A stretch of 39,084 bases of DNA from NCBI GenBank assembly GCA_902522825.1, contig CABYXE010000007.1, positions 1-39,084 on the forward strand. The letters are read 5' to 3'. The position numbers and the translations under genes were made by a program. Positions 1,217 through 12,626 of this stretch are shown here, in pieces. The notes under the pieces are model-generated. The model had not been told where the DNA came from. It worked only from the letters and a program-made list of their open reading frames with translations, and did not search any database. Origin of the DNA: an uncultured SAR86 cluster bacterium (GTDB taxonomy: Bacteria; Pseudomonadota; Gammaproteobacteria; Magnimaribacterales; AG-339-G14). Every line of letters begins with the position of its first letter. Positions within the stretch are counted from its first letter, which is position 1.

Positions 1217-1267
1217 CACTCATTTTTTTGATATTTTTTTTTATAAAAAAAATTATCCGTTTAATTT

Positions 1268-2799
<1,532 letters not shown>

Positions 2800-2826
2800 T
2801 ATATTTATACACAGCCTAAGTTATTC

Positions 2827-2854
2827 GTGAGTGTCCGTTCGAATTATATGAATT
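2827..2854 (+). other. 3' arm of the 16S processing stem
   Basis: Pairs with 1133-1160 across the whole 16S gene, 27 of 28 positions including wobbles. It lies about 27 bases after the mature 16S 3' end, the usual place for the RNase III stem. Confidence 0.75.
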
Positions 2855-2887
2855 TTTTACCCTTTAAATTTTGATTTTCTGGGTACG

Positions 2888-2901
2888 TGCGTTCTTTAAA
2901 A
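2888..2901 (+). promoter_or_regulatory. BoxA-like antitermination site in the spacer
   Basis: tgcgttctttaaaa closely resembles boxA (TGCTCTTTAACAA) and sits just after the 16S processing stem, as the spacer boxA does in E. coli rrn operons. It would bind NusB/S10 to keep polymerase resistant to termination through 23S. Confidence 0.5.
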
Positions 2902-3098
2902 GTATTGTAATCCAACGATTAATGGACGAGATTGATGAGATCTCTTAATCCATTAATTTAGATTAATAATTAATGTTATCAATTATTAATCAACTATTTT
3001 AAAAGCGAATTTCGCTTTTACGATAGATCAAGTTCGGAATAAATTTATTTATTCCAAATTTATACAATAATGTTCTGAAAATTTTATTTTCAGAATGC

Positions 3099-3128
3099 TA
3101 ATGGCAAATTTAATTGGCGCTTATTATT
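3099..3128 (+). other. 5' arm of the outer 23S processing stem
   Basis: Pairs with 6102-6130 after the 23S gene: twelve perfect pairs (taatggcaaatt), a small internal loop, then 13 of 14 pairs including wobbles. It encloses 23S and excludes 5S, so it is the expected RNase III site for pre-23S. Confidence 0.7.
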
Positions 3129-3176
3129 CAAAAAAAGTCTTAACATTTTTTAAAATTAGTTTTTTAAAAACATATA

Positions 3177-6082
<2,906 letters not shown>

Positions 6083-6101
6083 TATGTTTTTAGACAACTA
6101 A

Positions 6102-6130
6102 GATAATAAACGTCAAGCAATTTGCCATTA
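6102..6130 (+). other. 3' arm of the outer 23S processing stem
   Basis: Complement of 3099-3128, ending about 33 bases before the 5S gene; it separates pre-23S from pre-5S. Confidence 0.7.
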
Positions 6131-6162
6131 AGGATTACAATATTTTAAACAAATAAGAATTT

Positions 6163-6279
6163 TGTCCGATGACAATAGCAAGCGTGACCCACCTGATCCA
6201 TTTCGAACTCAGAAGTGAAACCGTTTAGCGCCGATGGTAGTGTAGTTTTTTCTATGCGAGAGTAGGACATCGTCGGACT
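6163..6279 (+). rRNA. rrf: 5S ribosomal RNA
   Basis: The core cgaactcagaagtgaaa followed by gcgccgatggtagtgt matches the E. coli 5S closely. Helix I can be seen directly: gtccgatg (6164-6171) pairs with cgtcggac (6271-6278) with one wobble. The length is about 117 bases. It is the last gene of the rRNA operon and is followed at once by a terminator. Confidence 0.96.
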
Positions 6280-6288
6280 TCTTATTAA

Positions 6289-6317
6289 AAAAAAGCTAGC
6301 TTATGCTGGCTTTTTTT
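6289..6317. terminator. Bidirectional intrinsic terminator after 5S rRNA
   Basis: A 12-bp stem, aaaaaagctagc / gctggctttttt with one G-U pair, closes a four-base loop (ttat). On the plus strand the stem runs into a T tract that ends the rRNA operon. On the minus strand the same A/T arms provide the U tract for the convergent operon ending with the pantothenate kinase, whose stop codon (6316-6318) lies at the edge of the hairpin. Confidence 0.88.
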
Positions 6318-7119
6318 ATATTGTTCCTAAGCAAATTGCGTATTCTCCGTTTTCGACAAATTCGCAATTTAAGTTATATAAATGAAATCCTTCTTTTAAA
6401 ATATTAGAGAGAAGGCTGTAATTAGGAGTTCTACCAATAACTATTACCTCGCTAACCCCGCAAGAAATTGAGTTCATAACAGCAGTTCGCAAAACAGTTT
6501 GCGCAACCATATTTATCACACCAGCTGCTAAGTCAGCGTTATTGGGTGCAAATAAAGAGCCTTTTCCAAAATTTACCGCGCTTGTATTTTCTGGAAGATT
6601 GCCAATAGGACCAGAAACAACATCTGAAAGTATATGATCAACTTTTGTTATATCTCCATCTAAAGATAAAGTATTTATTCTCTCAGGATCATCTTCATTA
6701 AATAATAACTTACATAATCCTCTGATTGTTCCTCCGCCAAGTCCCGTTCCTCCAACATGAATAAAACTTTCTTTTGTACCTAAGACACAAGCCGTCCCAG
6801 ATCCGCAACTTACAACAAGAAAATTATTATTTGAGTCTTTTTTTAATGCTTTAGCGCCTCTTCCTATCGCATCTACCTCGTTAAAATGGGCAACTAATAC
6901 ATTATCAATCTCGTTTGGCAGATCAGCATGCCTGCCACCGGTAACACCGATTGTCTCTATGTCACTAATATTTAAATTCGCTTGATAAAGAATTTTTTTG
7001 AGATAACTCACACTAACTTTTTCCGAAGGAAAGGTTGAATAAGAGACTTGATCATGATGGGCTACAACCAAGTCTGTATTAGTTATACCAAAATCAATGC
7101 CAATGCTTATTTTACTCAC
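6316..7119 (-). CDS. coaW: Type II pantothenate kinase (CoaW / eukaryotic PanK-like)
   Basis: Phosphorylates pantothenate with ATP, the committed step of CoA synthesis. The 267-residue protein has the ASKHA fold motifs of type II kinases: phosphate-1 loop GIDFGITNTD (7-16), a NEVDAIGRGA stretch (80-89) whose Glu81 fits the catalytic glutamate of the family, the adenosine loop SCGSGTA (104-110) and GGTGLGGGT (123-131). The length equals that of Staphylococcus aureus CoaW as I recall it. This type is unusual in gammaproteobacteria, which mostly use CoaA or CoaX. The start is GTG, with no clear ribosome-binding site. It lies 10 bases after the 2OG oxygenase gene and is the last gene of the minus-strand operon. 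panB and panC stand at the far end of the window. Confidence 0.85.
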   Translation of the reverse strand: MSKISIGIDFGITNTDLVVAHHDQVSYSTFPSEKVSVSYLKKILYQANLNISDIETIGVTGGRHADLPNEIDNVLVAHFNEVDAIGRGAKALKKDSNNNFLVVSCGSGTACVLGTKESFIHVGGTGLGGGTIRGLCKLLFNEDDPERINTLSLDGDITKVDHILSDVVSGPIGNLPENTSAVNFGKGSLFAPNNADLAAGVINMVAQTVLRTAVMNSISCGVSEVIVIGRTPNYSLLSNILKEGFHLYNLNCEFVENGEYAICLGTI

Positions 7120-7129
7120 GAGGCTATTT

Positions 7130-7744
7130 TCAACTGAATAGCTTTTTCATAAATGAGCTTAAACCGTGTCTTATTTTATGACTTGAAGCTGACTCTTTTT
7201 TCACATAGTTCATCTGCATCGACAGTCTTTTCCCTTCAACCGGATGAAAGCCATGCCAACAATTCTCGGTTACTTTAAATACAACTAAACTCCCAAAAGA
7301 AGCAGGAATCTCTTGAATAAAATCCTCTAAATCAGAATTATTTTTTAACATTCTTAATAATCCTTTTTCGTTAACCCATTCTTCATTCAAATACAAAAGA
7401 AAAGTTAAAACTTTAGATTTTGAATCACTATGGATTTTTCCATCCTTCATTCTTGAGTAGCCTCTTAAAGTTGTAATAACTTCTGTATTATCTAAATTAA
7501 CCTGGAATTTTTCTGAAAGAATTTCCTTCATTTCTTTACTCTCTATTTCTGAGATAAGCTGTCTTATTTTTTCGGAGAGTCCAGGCATATCACTCGGATA
7601 ACTGCCACCTTTATCGAGATTAGGGAATTCGCTAGATAAAGAGACTCCTTCGTCAGTAATACAATTAGGAACAGAAAAGAAAGGAAAAAAACTATCGTCA
7701 ACAGGTGCTGATTTAATTGAATTTAAATCAATTAAAGCACCCAT
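7130..7744 (-). CDS. 2-oxoglutarate/Fe(II)-dependent oxygenase (prolyl-hydroxylase-like)
   Basis: Likely uses O2, Fe(II) and 2-oxoglutarate to hydroxylate an unknown substrate. In the 204-residue protein the double-stranded beta-helix core covers about 85-182. It carries the iron triad H105-x-D107 and distal H164 (in WHGFHPV), followed by R173 (GKRLSMQ) for the 2-oxoglutarate carboxylate. The run TFLLYLNEEW (114-123), then a GLLR turn, is typical of the prolyl-4-hydroxylase-like group. It has no signal peptide, so it is cytoplasmic. It lies 11 bases downstream of a diiron protein gene and 10 bases upstream of the pantothenate kinase, so the three are surely co-transcribed. The substrate cannot be told from sequence; protein, small-molecule and lipid substrates all remain possible. 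Confidence 0.8.
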   Translation of the reverse strand: MGALIDLNSIKSAPVDDSFFPFFSVPNCITDEGVSLSSEFPNLDKGGSYPSDMPGLSEKIRQLISEIESKEMKEILSEKFQVNLDNTEVITTLRGYSRMKDGKIHSDSKSKVLTFLLYLNEEWVNEKGLLRMLKNNSDLEDFIQEIPASFGSLVVFKVTENCWHGFHPVEGKRLSMQMNYVKKESASSHKIRHGLSSFMKKLFS

Positions 7745-7755
7745 CGAAGATGATA

Positions 7756-8928
7756 TTATCTATTTGCTGCTTCTTGAGCTTTAAGAATTTCAGCTAACAT
7801 TTCATCAGATTCTGCTTTAACCTGATCTGATGATTCTAATGGTTTAGTAATTTCAGCCCAGTCGATTTCAAAATCACTTGGAGCGTGCTCATATTCTAAA
7901 ATACCTAGAGCTTCATATTTGGGCCTGATCGAATCAGTTAAAAGACCAATCTTTTTCAAATTAGGCATAACCCTTGAAAATAAGAAGCTTCTGAATTGAT
8001 CCATAGCCCCATTACTCAATTGAAACTCCCTGACTTCTTCATCAGTCATTTTCAAATATTTCGACATCGCTTTAGTATTGATAAGTCTGTCTCTTGAAAT
8101 TACACAAGCTTCATAAGCAAATTGCGCTCTGTCTTCTATTTCTTCAGGAGAAAGAGTTTGAACAAAATCTTCAAGATAGTTAATACCAAAAGTAACATGT
8201 CTAGCTTCATCCCTAATGACGTAGTGCAAAAGTGTTTTCAGCAATGTGTCATTGGCTGACAACTTCATGTTAGTAAAAGCAGCTAGAGCTAATCCTTCAA
8301 TTATGATTTGCATACCAATAAATTTTAAATCCCATCTTTCATCAGTGAGAATTTTATCAAGCAAAGCCTTAAGGTTTGGATTAATAGGATAATGAAAACC
8401 TACTTTTTCTTGAAGGTATCTATTAAAAACTTCAACGTGTCTTGCTTCATCAAAGGTTTGGGAAGCTGCATACATTTTTGCATTAAACGTTGGAGCGCAA
8501 CTAACTATTTGAGATGCAACTAATAGAGCACCCTGTTCGCCATGTAAAAACTGACTAAGAACTTCAGCAGTCTCATGTCTATCAAACTCCATTTTTTCTT
8601 CATCTGTTAAATTTTTCCATGCATCAAGTTCTTCATGAGGCAAAGTCACTCCTTCTATCCCTGTAAGAGGCTTATCTTTGGGATGGTTATAGTCCCAATC
8701 TAAATCAATTGATCCATTCCAATTTAGTTCTTTACCTAGCTCGTAAAGTTTTTTTATTCGGTTATCTGCGACCGTATAGTCCCAATTATAGGATCCAGTA
8801 AGAGGAGTTTTAAATATTTCAGCGACGTCTTCAACGTCTTGAGGACTTAAATCTAACTCGTCGTCTTTGTAATCTTCATCAAAATAAAGTACGTCCTTAG
8901 GAGGACCATCCGTTTTTGTAATTTTCAT
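7756..8928 (-). CDS. Ferritin-like diiron-carboxylate protein, probable oxygenase
   Basis: A 390-residue helical protein with a complete set of diiron ligands: E131 (HGEQG), E161/H164 (DEARH), E211 (EGLALAAF) and E241/H244 (DEARH). The E...ExxH...E...ExxH order is shared by ribonucleotide reductase R2, bacterial multicomponent monooxygenases and other diiron oxygenases. The spacing here (30, 47 and 30 residues between successive groups) is tighter than in R2 or methane monooxygenase. No tyrosine-radical or partner-subunit logic can be read, and no reductase gene lies nearby. I do not recognise the exact subfamily. It follows cobT by 62 bases and has its own promoter-like sequence there. Neighbouring genes encode a second iron/O2 enzyme and a metal-chelatase-type ATPase pair, so shared iron handling or a shared pathway is plausible. 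Confidence 0.75.
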   Translation of the reverse strand: MKITKTDGPPKDVLYFDEDYKDDELDLSPQDVEDVAEIFKTPLTGSYNWDYTVADNRIKKLYELGKELNWNGSIDLDWDYNHPKDKPLTGIEGVTLPHEELDAWKNLTDEEKMEFDRHETAEVLSQFLHGEQGALLVASQIVSCAPTFNAKMYAASQTFDEARHVEVFNRYLQEKVGFHYPINPNLKALLDKILTDERWDLKFIGMQIIIEGLALAAFTNMKLSANDTLLKTLLHYVIRDEARHVTFGINYLEDFVQTLSPEEIEDRAQFAYEACVISRDRLINTKAMSKYLKMTDEEVREFQLSNGAMDQFRSFLFSRVMPNLKKIGLLTDSIRPKYEALGILEYEHAPSDFEIDWAEITKPLESSDQVKAESDEMLAEILKAQEAANR

Positions 8929-8934
8929 AAAAAA

Positions 8935-8962
8935 ATTTTAGTCTTTTAAGGCTATAAGTCAA
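8935..8962 (-). promoter_or_regulatory. Promoter of the diiron gene, predicted leaderless
   Basis: On the minus strand TTGACT (8957-8962) and TAAAAT (8935-8940) each match the sigma-70 consensus at 5 of 6 bases and are 16 bases apart. Only six bases separate the -10 from the ATG (8926-8928), so initiation at the usual distance would start the mRNA at or next to the start codon. No Shine-Dalgarno is present. Two direct copies of cttttaag (plus-strand reading, 8943-8950 and 8973-8980) flank the -35. Confidence 0.5.
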
Positions 8963-8990
8963 TAAAAAAAGGCTTTTAAGAGAACAGAAA

Positions 8991-10748
8991 TTATGAATTT
9001 TTGTCAATGAATAGTTCAGTTAATTGCTCCAACATAACACCACCTAATTCCTCAGCTCTGTGGATGGTTACCGCTTTAGAATAATACCTAGTAACGTCAT
9101 GTCCAATACCAATTGCAACTAAATCTATATCGGTTTTATTTTCTATTTCTCTAATGACTTGTTTTAAATGATTATCCAAATAACTAGTGGAATTAGTAGA
9201 AAGAGTACTGTCATCTACTGGTGCTCCGTCAGAAATCACCATTAATATTTGCCTTTGTTCTGGTCTCTTAAAGAGTCTCCCGCAAGCCCACAACAAAGCT
9301 TCACCATCAACATTTTCTTTCAAAAGGCCTTCTCGAAGCATGAGTCCTAGATTTTTTTTAGCTCTTCTCCACGCTAAATCGGCCGGTTTAAAAATTATGT
9401 GTCTTAGATCATTTAATCTACCTGGATTGCTTGGTTTTCCACACTCTACCCAGAGTTTTCTGCTATCTCCACCTTTCCAATGCTTTGTTGTGAAACCTAA
9501 AATTTCAGTTTTTATATTACATCTATCTAAAGTTGCTCCAATTATGTCTGCAGAAATCGCGGCAGTTGTCATAGATCTTCCTCTCATAGAACCAGAGCTA
9601 TCTACCAAAATAGTTACTACTGTATCTTTAAATTTTGTATCCTTTTCTTGTTTGAAACTCAATGAAGTGAGGGGATCAGTAATGATTTTATGTAGCTTTG
9701 AAGTATCTAAAATCCCTTCGTCTTTATCATACTCCCAGGACCTATTTTGTTGAGCTAATAACAATCTCTGAAGTCTATTCGCAAGTTTAGCAATTACAGA
9801 TTTACTTGGATCGATCAGCTGATCTAATCTTGTCCTTAAGCGCCTGAGTTCTTCAGAAGAACATAGGTCTTCAGCATCAATAACCTCGTCATAATCTCTA
9901 GAAAATACTTTATATTCTGACTCTCTTTCTTGACCTAGAAGTTCTTCAAGTTTTGTTCTATTTTCTAACCATTCGTCTTCAGTTTCCTCAGTTTCTCCTT
10001 CTTCTATATCAAATTCTTCCGAAGATTCTGCCTCTGTTTCTTGTTGTTCAGAAGAAGATTCTTCCTCTGATTGTTCCTCGTCTTGCTCGTCATTTTCTTC
10101 AGACTCGTCTTGATCTTCTTGATAGGAATTTGACTCTTCTTCCTCCATTTCTTCTTCATCAAAAGAAATTTCTAACTCTTCCAAGATGAGTTCAATTTCT
10201 TTTAGGTAACTGTCTTTTTCATCAAGAGCATTTTTAATTCTAGGAATATATTTTCTTTCTAAAGCACTTAGATCTTTTTTAAAAGGCTCTAAACAAGACT
10301 CTTCTTTTTTGGTCAAATCAAGATTTAAAATATTGCTTTTAAGCCAGATTTGTAAAGCTTTACTAGCATTTTCATGTGTAGTTTCGGGAGCAAAACTCTC
10401 AAGAGAATCTAAAAAAATTCTGTGCAAATTATTTTTTACTCCTGAAAATTGCAACGAACCTAAAATATCAAGTCGGACATCATTTTGTTCGAAAAGAATT
10501 TGGTCTAATTCTTGAATTCCAGTAATTTTATTAGGCTTTTCAAAAGAATATTTTTCTTTTAAAGCTATCTTATCGGCTTTTCCTCTAGAAACTATTAAAT
10601 CCTTTTTAGATGGAGAGATCTTAGGAATAGAATTTCCGGAAAGAGAGTCAATGCCGAAGGAAATTTCTAATTCTTTTTTTTGAGAAATTGCTCTCGTAGA
10701 TGAAGAAAGAGCATCTTTGAGGATTTGGTCTTTGGATTTATCGTTCAA
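8991..10748 (-). CDS. cobT: CobT-type cobaltochelatase subunit (VWA domain)
   Basis: In aerobic cobalamin synthesis CobT acts with CobS as the ATPase/VWA part of the CobNST cobaltochelatase. The 585-residue protein has the family's N-terminal domain ([13 protein letters not shown]... onward), a very acidic Glu/Asp/Ser stretch at about 196-260, and a C-terminal VWA domain with the MIDAS motif DSSGS (383-387) and SDGAP (506-510). It is close to the usual CobT length. The start is TTG: the codon overlaps the cobS stop as TTGA, and no other start gives the family N-terminus, so translation is probably coupled to cobS. No cobN or other cobalamin gene is in the window. The function could therefore be metal insertion or remodelling of another protein. 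Confidence 0.9.
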
Positions 10749-11737
10749 TCCTGATCTGCTAAGTTTGAAACTGAGTCATCAATTTCTATGTCAAAACATC
10801 TTTGCAAATATTCTGAAATAATTGGTTTTTCAGTTTCGTCGCACTTATTTAAAAAACTTAATTCAAAAGATGAAGCTAAATCTGAAAAAATTTGGTAGTT
10901 TTCAGCCCAACTTATTACAGTTCGAGGAGACATTAAATTAGATATATCTCCATTTTTAAATCCTTCCCTTGTTAAGTTAGCTAACTCAATCATATTTTTA
11001 ACTACTTCGGTGCCTTTTTTGTTATTGAGTTCTGGAACTTTTGATAAAACTACTTTGGTTTCTAGTTCAACTGATAAATAATTAAGACAAGAAACAATTT
11101 GCCATCTATCCATCTGCCCTTGGTTTATTTGTTGAGTTCCATGGTAAAGACCAGTGCTATCTCCTAAGCCGACTGTGTTGGCAGTAGCAAATAATCTAAA
11201 AAAAGGATTTGGTGTTAAAACTCTATTTTGATCTAGTAAAGTTAACTTACCGTCTACTTCCAAGACTCTTTGAATTACAAACATGACGTCGGGTCTTCCA
11301 GCATCATATTCATCAAAAACCAAAGCTGTTGGATTTTGTATAGCCCAAGGCAATATGCCTTCCTGAAATTTTGTCACCTGCTTATCTTTTTCTATAACAA
11401 TCGCATCCTTACCTAATAAATCAAGACGGCTTATGTGACTATCTAGATTTATTCTGATACATGGCCAATTTAATCGAGCTGCAACTTGTTCTATATGAGT
11501 TGATTTTCCAGAGCCATGAAGTCCTTGAACCATTACTCTTCTGTTATTTGAGAAGCCAGCTAAAATGGAAAGAGTCGTTGATCTATCAAAACAATATGCT
11601 TCATCCACAGTTGGAACATATTCATTAGATTCCGAAAATGCAGGAACTTCAAAGTCAGCATCAAAGCCAAATGTGTTTCCAACATTAACTTTAATGTCTG
11701 GAGTAGAATCAGAGAAATTATTATATGTAGTTGTCAT
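10745..11737 (-). CDS. cobS: CobS-type cobaltochelatase AAA+ ATPase (MoxR family)
   Basis: A hexameric MoxR-type AAA+ ATPase that partners CobT. In the 330-residue protein Walker A is GLHGSGKST (72-80), Walker B is LVFDEYDAG (139-147), sensor 1 is in ATANT (184-188), and an arginine-finger candidate is R211 in QMDRW. The stretches [25 protein letters not shown] and [12 protein letters not shown] are near-diagnostic of genuine CobS rather than generic MoxR. It is the first gene of a minus-strand run cobS-cobT-diiron-2OG oxygenase-coaW and faces cysE across a 100-base gap. In marine genomes and phages cobS can occur outside complete B12 pathways, so its presence alone does not prove cobalamin synthesis. 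Confidence 0.94.
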
Positions 11738-11837
11738 AAAAAGAGTTTATTATCCCTTTTTTAAAAGAGACAGCAAGAATTTATCTGCATCTTAAAGTAA
11801 ACTTAACTTAGAATTTTTTAATCTAAATTTAGGAAAA

Positions 11838-12626
11838 ATGAAAACTTTAGAAATTTGGTCTGAAATCAAAGACGAGGCTAATACTTTTATAAAAAATGAT
11901 GAAGACGCGTCTATTTTTCTAGATGCTTATTTAGAGCCTTTTGAAACTTTAGGCTCAACACTTTCCTTCAAACTTTCTAAAGACCTAGCATGCGACGAAA
12001 ATCAGGAAGGCTTTAGTCAAAATTATTTGTTTCATGAGTTGGATAAAACTTTCGGTGATGAAGAAATCATAGCTGGAGTAATTAAAGATTTATCAGCTGT
12101 AAAAAAAAGAGATCCTGCCGCCAGTGGGTACTTAATGACATTGCTTTTTTCAAAAGGATTTCTAGCTCTTCAAGCACATCGAGCAGCAAATAAATTTATA
12201 GGATCAAAAAAAACTTTCATGGCTTTATATCTTCAAAGCCAATCTTCAAAAAATTATGGAGTTGATATTCATCCTTCTGCATCAATAGGTAATGGAGTCA
12301 TGTTAGATCACGCTACTGGGATTGTAATTGGGGAAACCAGTGTAGTAGAAGATGATGTTTCTATATTTCAAGGAGTAACACTAGGCGGTACAGGAAAAAT
12401 AACTGGCGATCGTCACCCAAAGGTTAGAAAAGGAGTATTAATTAGTGCTGGCGCAAAGATTATAGGTAATGTAGAAATTGGAGAGGGAGCAAAAGTAGCC
12501 GCTGGAAGCGTAGTTTTAGAAGACGTTGAGATGAATACTACTGTTGCTGGAGTTCCTGCAATTGCAGTCGGAAAACCTGCTACTGATTCACCCGCAAAAA
12601 CAGTCGATCACTCAATAAAGGATTAA
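11838..12626 (+). CDS. cysE: Serine O-acetyltransferase
   Basis: Makes O-acetylserine from serine and acetyl-CoA, the first step of cysteine synthesis. The 262-residue protein has the alpha-helical N-terminal domain (with RDPA, D92) and a left-handed beta-helix of hexapeptide repeats (about 140-245). Catalytic residues are visible: D157/H158 (LDHATG) and H193 (DRHPK). A Shine-Dalgarno-like agga lies 7 bases before the ATG. It is two bases from tesB, hence co-transcribed. The C-terminus ends SIKD; the terminal isoleucine that docks into CysK in E. coli is absent, so the cysteine synthase complex may not form. Confidence 0.96.
   Translation: MKTLEIWSEIKDEANTFIKNDEDASIFLDAYLEPFETLGSTLSFKLSKDLACDENQEGFSQNYLFHELDKTFGDEEIIAGVIKDLSAVKKRDPAASGYLMTLLFSKGFLALQAHRAANKFIGSKKTFMALYLQSQSSKNYGVDIHPSASIGNGVMLDHATGIVIGETSVVEDDVSIFQGVTLGGTGKITGDRHPKVRKGVLISAGAKIIGNVEIGEGAKVAAGSVVLEDVEMNTTVAGVPAIAVGKPATDSPAKTVDHSIKD

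Follow-up and report, generated by a model that had tools for sequence, protein, structure and literature searches.

Introduction

MoxR-type AAA+ ATPases that act together with a protein carrying a von Willebrand factor A (VWA) domain are known from systems with quite different clients. The NorQD pair is described as necessary for insertion of the FeB iron into the nitric oxide reductase cNOR, and ATP-driven twisting of the VWA partner has been proposed there to open cNOR so that iron can be inserted (PMC13036017). The rubisco activase CbbQO is presented in the same report as a remodeller of the same composition (PMC13036017), and in the cobaltochelatase CobNST, the CobS and CobT proteins accompany the CobN subunit. 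Here, we analyzed a 39,084-nt stretch of DNA (the window; all positions refer to the whole stretch) from a SAR86 genome (1.11 Mb, 88.9% complete, 30 contigs), in which a cobS-cobT pair directly precedes the gene for a ferritin-like diiron protein.

The SAR86 proteins share with CobNST the CobS and CobT families, with motor residues and residues of the metal ion-dependent adhesion site (MIDAS) kept, but they occur without CobN, score below the equivalog cut-offs and are linked to a diiron gene. The likeness to NorQD lies in the combination of a MoxR AAA+ ATPase with a VWA protein, which in NorQD acts on a non-haem iron enzyme (PMC13036017). However, the SAR86 proteins match CobS and CobT models, the proposed client is ferritin-like instead of a membrane reductase, and the SAR86 system is known here from gene context. 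CobS and CobT were the best models for the window pair, and no NorQ or NorD model was among the matches, the libraries being unchecked for holding one. CbbQO is likewise built of a MoxR AAA+ ATPase and a VWA remodeller, but its client is rubisco, from which an inhibitor is removed instead of a metal being loaded. The proposed client, in turn, resembles AurF/CmlI, R2lox, aldehyde-deformylating oxygenase (ADO) and the bacterial multicomponent monooxygenases in its ferritin-like fold and its pattern of four Glu and two His, but shows 7-18% identity to them among the matches listed. Among the papers listed in literature searches, no ferritin-like diiron oxygenase with a dedicated AAA+/VWA chaperone appeared. 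Nor did any of the titles and abstract openings listed (subscription journals and preprints being outside the scope) describe CobST in SAR86 or next to the gene of a diiron protein.

By analogy with the MoxR/VWA pairs, we propose, with a probability of roughly 0.4, that SAR86 CobST serves as an ATP-driven remodelling or metal-loading chaperone and that the adjacent diiron protein is its main client in SAR86. The proposal builds on the observed gene order, the absence of CobN, intact motor residues and intact putative diiron ligands; from the gene context we infer an interaction between CobST and the diiron protein, its direction of action and metal loading.

Results

A cobS-cobT-diiron unit is conserved across SAR86

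The three genes at the center of this study lie on the minus strand of the window:

10745..11737, minus strand: cobS, MoxR-type AAA+ ATPase (PF12556, PF07728)
8991..10748, minus strand: cobT, VWA/MIDAS partner with an acidic middle region (PF06213, PF11775)
7756..8928, minus strand: ferritin-like diiron protein, the proposed client (PF11583 AurF, 45.3 bits)

A 4-nt overlap joins cobS and cobT, the latter with a TTG start as called by the open reading frame (ORF) tool, and a gap of 62 nt separates cobT from the diiron gene. CobT is present in 150 of the 199 genomes of the order, namely in 35 of the 40 genomes of the window's own family (f1), in 29 genomes of a second family (f2) and in 86 of a third (f3). 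These are long matches, with open frames of mostly 575-610 aa, and those in the loci read are full-length. A diiron orthologue lies directly 3' of cobT in 33 of the 35 CobT-bearing f1 genomes, as read by eye, the remaining two being truncated CobT matches. The same arrangement is present in 85 of 86 CobT-bearing f3 genomes (the exception is G167) and in 12 of the 13 f2 genomes examined, with the exception stopping at a contig edge. In each of these 12 f2 loci, cobT is followed by a tandem pair of diiron genes that belong to different clades. The adjacency, whose conservation in relatives the earlier note had singled out for checking, is thus not confined to one genome, and its order-wide conservation excludes a chance neighbourhood. 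The conserved context of a CobN-less CobST in this order is real. Scattered SAR86 genomes that lack both cobST and the diiron copy next to it are weak evidence and were not relied on, since the genomes are incomplete and the locus borders a ribosomal RNA (rRNA) operon, a place at which assemblies are prone to break.

Gene order can also be conserved without functional dependence, as neighbours retained by descent in the small SAR86 genomes. Such an explanation fits the observation that unrelated order is conserved as well: in 44 of the 45 long loci compared (26 from f1, 19 from f2 and f3), the distance from tesB to cobS is at most about 2.5 kb, a contig end truncating the remaining locus, and cysE adjoins cobS in two families, yet not in the f3 loci read. 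In addition, genomes of a fourth family (f4) have the diiron gene but no cobST, and in two of four loci tesB lies next to this gene (see below). Against mere descent stands the reshuffling of the surroundings. In three families, the cobS-cobT-diiron core has stayed unbroken while cysE, a 2-oxoglutarate (2OG)-dependent oxygenase gene, a pantothenate kinase (PanK) gene and another gene around it changed place, appeared or disappeared, with f2 and f3 CobT proteins retaining just 42-54% identity to the window's CobT. We consider synteny without dependence an unlikely explanation. The conserved unit is cobS-cobT-diiron, while the 2OG gene is lineage-specific and the PanK gene peripheral.

SAR86 genomes with CobST lack CobN

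The earlier note, having seen no cobN in the window, had called for a search of the rest of the genome. A profile search with PF02514, which covers CobN and BchH and recovers archaeal members in controls, gave no match in any of the 40 f1 genomes, the window's genome included, and none in 198 of the 199 order genomes; among the corrin genes, the genome searches covered CobS, CobT and CobN. The sole match in the order (L195) resides in G099, a genome of the CobT-less family f4 that is 64% complete and split into 70 contigs, and is possibly foreign DNA. Judged by CobN, SAR86 CobST is not a cobaltochelatase.

CobST could still take part in cobalt-corrin metabolism, either together with a chelatase subunit that has diverged strongly or in the handling of imported corrinoids. 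Apart from the protein names, this idea draws on btuB, a B12 importer gene reported to be carried by SAR86 genomes (PMC11582366), and on viral cobST, for which use of a host CobN has been proposed (PMC8651126). Yet it has to contend with the absence of PF02514 from all but one of the SAR86 genomes, by a model that finds archaeal members, and with a review that places the principal active site of the chelatase in CobN (PMC7689651). We regard a remaining corrin function as very improbable.

SAR86 CobS and CobT retain motor and MIDAS residues

In comparison with the NCBIfam equivalog models, the window's CobS scored 504.8 bits against TIGR01650 (cut-off 558.55) and its CobT 586.9 bits against TIGR01651 (cut-off 759.05), and two further SAR86 CobS/CobT pairs likewise remained under the cut-offs. 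The CobT cut-off does not track CobN: among four CobT proteins from other classes, one whose genome has CobN stays below it (674.8), and another, from a genome lacking CobN, exceeds it (850.5). PF11775 also matches Bacillus subtilis and is hence not specific for CobT.

In CobS, Walker A (G72, G75, G77, K78, S79) and Walker B (F141, D142, E143) are invariant in 51 aligned rows, and in CobT, the MIDAS residues D383, S385, S387 and D507 are invariant in 62 rows, both alignments including genomes of other classes. The locus thus encodes an ATPase with both Walker motifs next to a VWA gene with an intact MIDAS, as expected of a MoxR AAA+/VWA pair. Of the columns that do not vary among the other-class rows, at least 90% of SAR86 rows retain the residue at 122 of 130 in CobS and at 121 of 146 in CobT. 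Five of the 12 such CobT columns that are lost in most SAR86 rows fall at 380-412, around the MIDAS loop; P392, for example, is kept in 0 of 25 SAR86 rows. This clustering is no more than suggestive (hypergeometric P 0.019, for a window picked after seeing the data). SAR86 CobT proteins form one clade in a quick tree of 63 rows.

The adjacent gene encodes a putative ferritin-like diiron oxygenase

In the protein encoded 3' of cobT, E131, E161, H164, E211, E241 and H244 are invariant in 16 aligned rows and kept in all 34 rows of a further alignment read. Their order (E, ExxH, E, ExxH; four Glu and two His) is that of diiron oxygenases, and the six residues are presumably the metal ligands. The Pfam AurF score of 45.3 bits exceeds the cut-off of that model, and no NCBIfam equivalog reaches its own. 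A predicted structure (mean predicted local distance difference test score, pLDDT, of 71.9) gave Z values of 18-19 to ADO, R2lox, toluene monooxygenase (ToMO) and AurF over about 200-270 residues; among helical bundles, Z values run high. Foldseek with this model returned a single match at E <=0.001 (best 8e-4), and PDB sequence matches were weak (best E 2.9e-5). Based on the model, the protein is predicted to adopt a ferritin-like fold.

In a tree of 97 diiron proteins, the label "beside cobT" takes three changes, compared to a mean of 31 in shuffles. A C-terminal DW...P segment was considered as a CobST-specific docking tail and ruled out as a mark of CobST dependence, since it is largely retained in copies unlinked to CobST. 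Residue 364, in a C-terminal PL, is Leu in nearly all other rows read, Tyr in four f4 rows and Phe in two rows of G312. Both are CobT-less lineages, but the changes amount to two events at most.

The remainder of the run is lineage-specific or peripheral

The following features surround or subdivide the core:

8935..8962, minus strand: promoter-like site in the cobT-diiron gap (TTGACT-16-TAAAAT, sigma-70-like, 10/12)
7130..7744, minus strand: 2OG-Fe(II) oxygenase, lineage-specific neighbour (PF13640, E 3e-10)
6316..7119, minus strand: type II pantothenate kinase (PanK-II), peripheral neighbour (PF03630, E 1.3e-16; NF009842, E 3.5e-51, below its cut-off)
1267..6278, plus strand: complete 16S-23S-5S rRNA operon, downstream of and convergent with the cobS-to-PanK run (Rfam matches)

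Gaps of 11 nt and 10 nt separate the diiron from the 2OG gene and the 2OG from the PanK-II gene, respectively, and divergent cysE and tesB genes lie upstream of cobS. ORF calls, Pfam and NCBIfam agree with the five genes, their order and the gaps given in the earlier note. Its description of one operon-like run needs correcting, as a sigma-70-like site lies inside the 62-nt cobT-diiron gap. The TTGAC and the AAAA in the spacer of this site are identical in six of six aligned sequences from the window's genus, and the -10 hexamer is kept in four of the six; over the whole region, sigma-70-like sites are not in excess (15, versus a mean of 19.1 in shuffles). Elsewhere in the order, the gap is very variable, down to 15 nt in an f3 locus (L063) and 24 nt in an f2 locus (L057). 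Judging from these sequences, transcription of the diiron gene may begin separately in the window's genus, and in some relatives the gene may be co-transcribed with cobST. A TTGCTG-16-GATAAT-like element upstream of cobS (11730-11845) is conserved in six aligned own-family sequences.

The 2OG oxygenase, which had been put forward alongside the diiron enzyme as a possible partner of CobST, is present by tblastn in 8 of the 26 long f1 loci and in none of the 19 long f2 and f3 loci; as it is not conserved, we discarded it as a co-client. PanK-II is found inside the fetched stretch in all 26 long f1 loci and in 16 of the 19 f2 and f3 loci, there kilobases off. The kinase gene remains in the vicinity but frequently does not adjoin the core. 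In one own-family genome (genus g3; L014:3781-6276), a large opposite-strand gene is inserted between the diiron gene and the kinase gene; its product looks like a secreted protease of the subtilisin type that ends in a beta-barrel.

Diiron genes occur without CobST

A number of observations weigh against the diiron protein as the main client of CobST. First, CobT is missing from all 21 f4 genomes, including some that are 97%, 95% and 93% complete, while 19 of the 21 have a diiron match. Five f4 diiron proteins nest, on a long branch (0.66), in a largely operonic clade. Moreover, in two of four fetched f4 loci (L260 and L261), the diiron gene lies just past tesB, at the position occupied by cobST in the other families; L259 and L262 have no tesB near the diiron gene. 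Probably, cobST was lost in place and the enzyme was kept in f4, which is the simplest reading. The corresponding stretch of L260 contains one extra ORF, presumably a short-chain dehydrogenase gene.

Second, f1 and f3 loci contain a second diiron copy between pyrG and alr (names given by inspection), with no CobST nearby. One such paralogue, about 57% identical, lies in G000 (contig C4, L032:5732-6820), and the pyrG-diiron-alr order recurs in L033-L035 and L037 of the window's own family and in L263-L265 of f3. Third, outside SAR86, the diiron profile matches 13 of 397 other genomes of a phylum sample, some of them weakly. Ten of 12 such genomes tested for CobT have it, in all ten cases at a different place, and the same-class genomes G312 (close) and G201 (distant) have a diiron relative without CobT. 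Neighbours of other-class diiron genes were also inspected for functional hints and gave none, those of L174 (seven matching lytB, argS, cytochrome, rhodanese, GST and MatE, and one further without a match) being unlike those of L175-L177, with none shared.

The diiron enzyme thus does not always need CobST, given that the f4 and pyrG-alr copies lack it, and CobST does not always accompany the enzyme. As for the earlier suggestion that the diiron enzyme is a client of CobST, the adjacency in three of four SAR86 families speaks for it, but a strict dependence is contradicted by f4 and by the pyrG-alr copy.

CobN-less CobST is common outside the window's class

Further points against a diiron-centered function come from other classes, where CobN-less CobST is common and this diiron protein is rare, so that CobST probably has other clients there. 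In the phylum sample (398 genomes), 128 genomes outside the window's class, presumably mostly Alphaproteobacteria, have CobT, and 40 of the 128 have no PF02514 match; as this model counts BchH too, genomes without CobN may exceed 40 of 128. Caulobacter vibrioides, used as a control, has a CobT match and no CobN match. Consequently, the non-B12 role envisaged by the earlier note is in line with the absence of CobN, but it is unlikely to be special to this gene run. Among the papers listed in literature searches, we found no discussion of CobST without CobN in other classes. Furthermore, CobN-less genomes of other classes retain the MIDAS-loop residues that are changed in SAR86, and the SAR86 change is thus not a consequence of CobN loss.

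In the other-class loci, cobST often lies beside bolA and a DnaJ-domain gene, whether or not the genome has CobN: cobST is preceded by a DnaJ-domain gene and, in divergent orientation, a bolA-like gene in the CobN-less L221, L223, L229, L235, L237 and L240 and equally in the CobN-bearing L245. A bolA-like cluster is present in at least 12 of 38 and a DnaJ-like cluster in at least 14 of 38 such loci (one representative each annotated). These neighbour counts are lower bounds, with ORF picking poor in GC-rich loci (cobT called in 26 of 38, cobS in 16 of 38). The neighbourhood hints at a connection with iron handling or protein folding.

These findings, together with the retention of the diiron gene in CobT-less f4, fit a scenario in which CobN-less CobST is a general proteobacterial remodelling chaperone with another, more widely conserved client, also in SAR86, and in which the diiron gene is co-regulated with it or encodes one client among several. 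What this scenario has to accommodate is that, in the loci read, SAR86 cobT is linked to the diiron gene as strictly as to cobS and that this linkage outlasts the reshuffling of neighbours. A general chaperone is, in our estimate, a real possibility, somewhat short of an even chance.

Discussion

Acting on the diiron protein, SAR86 CobST would be a MoxR/VWA motor without the corrin-chelatase subunit, for which we take NorQD and its action on FeB of nitric oxide reductase as the model. CobS would form the ATPase ring and CobT would couple this ring to the diiron client via its VWA/MIDAS domain. ATP-driven strain would then open the helical bundle of the diiron protein, upon which iron would be inserted or corrected, or the site reactivated. 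By analogy, it is plausible that SAR86 CobST works like the MoxR/VWA metal chaperones. Only tentatively, and with more doubt than confidence, do we extend this to CobST being a dedicated ATP-driven iron-loading or activation chaperone in SAR86 for a family of soluble diiron oxygenases.

CobS and CobT are used as markers of aerobic B12 synthesis (e.g. PMC2667541). With CobT occurring without CobN in most SAR86 genomes and in 40 of the 128 CobT-bearing genomes of other classes, surveys of B12 producers can be misled. The wide occurrence of CobT without CobN also implies an undiscovered CobST client. SAR86 supplies a concrete candidate for such a client, along with a CobT-less family (f4) as a natural control, and it has a cultured isolate, described as Magnimaribacter mokuoloeensis HIMB1674 (PMC11582366). 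If our proposal is correct, CobST would have a non-corrin client and the ferritin-like diiron class would join the clients of AAA+/VWA systems, with the CobST-diiron system being carried by SAR86, one of the most abundant lineages of the surface ocean.

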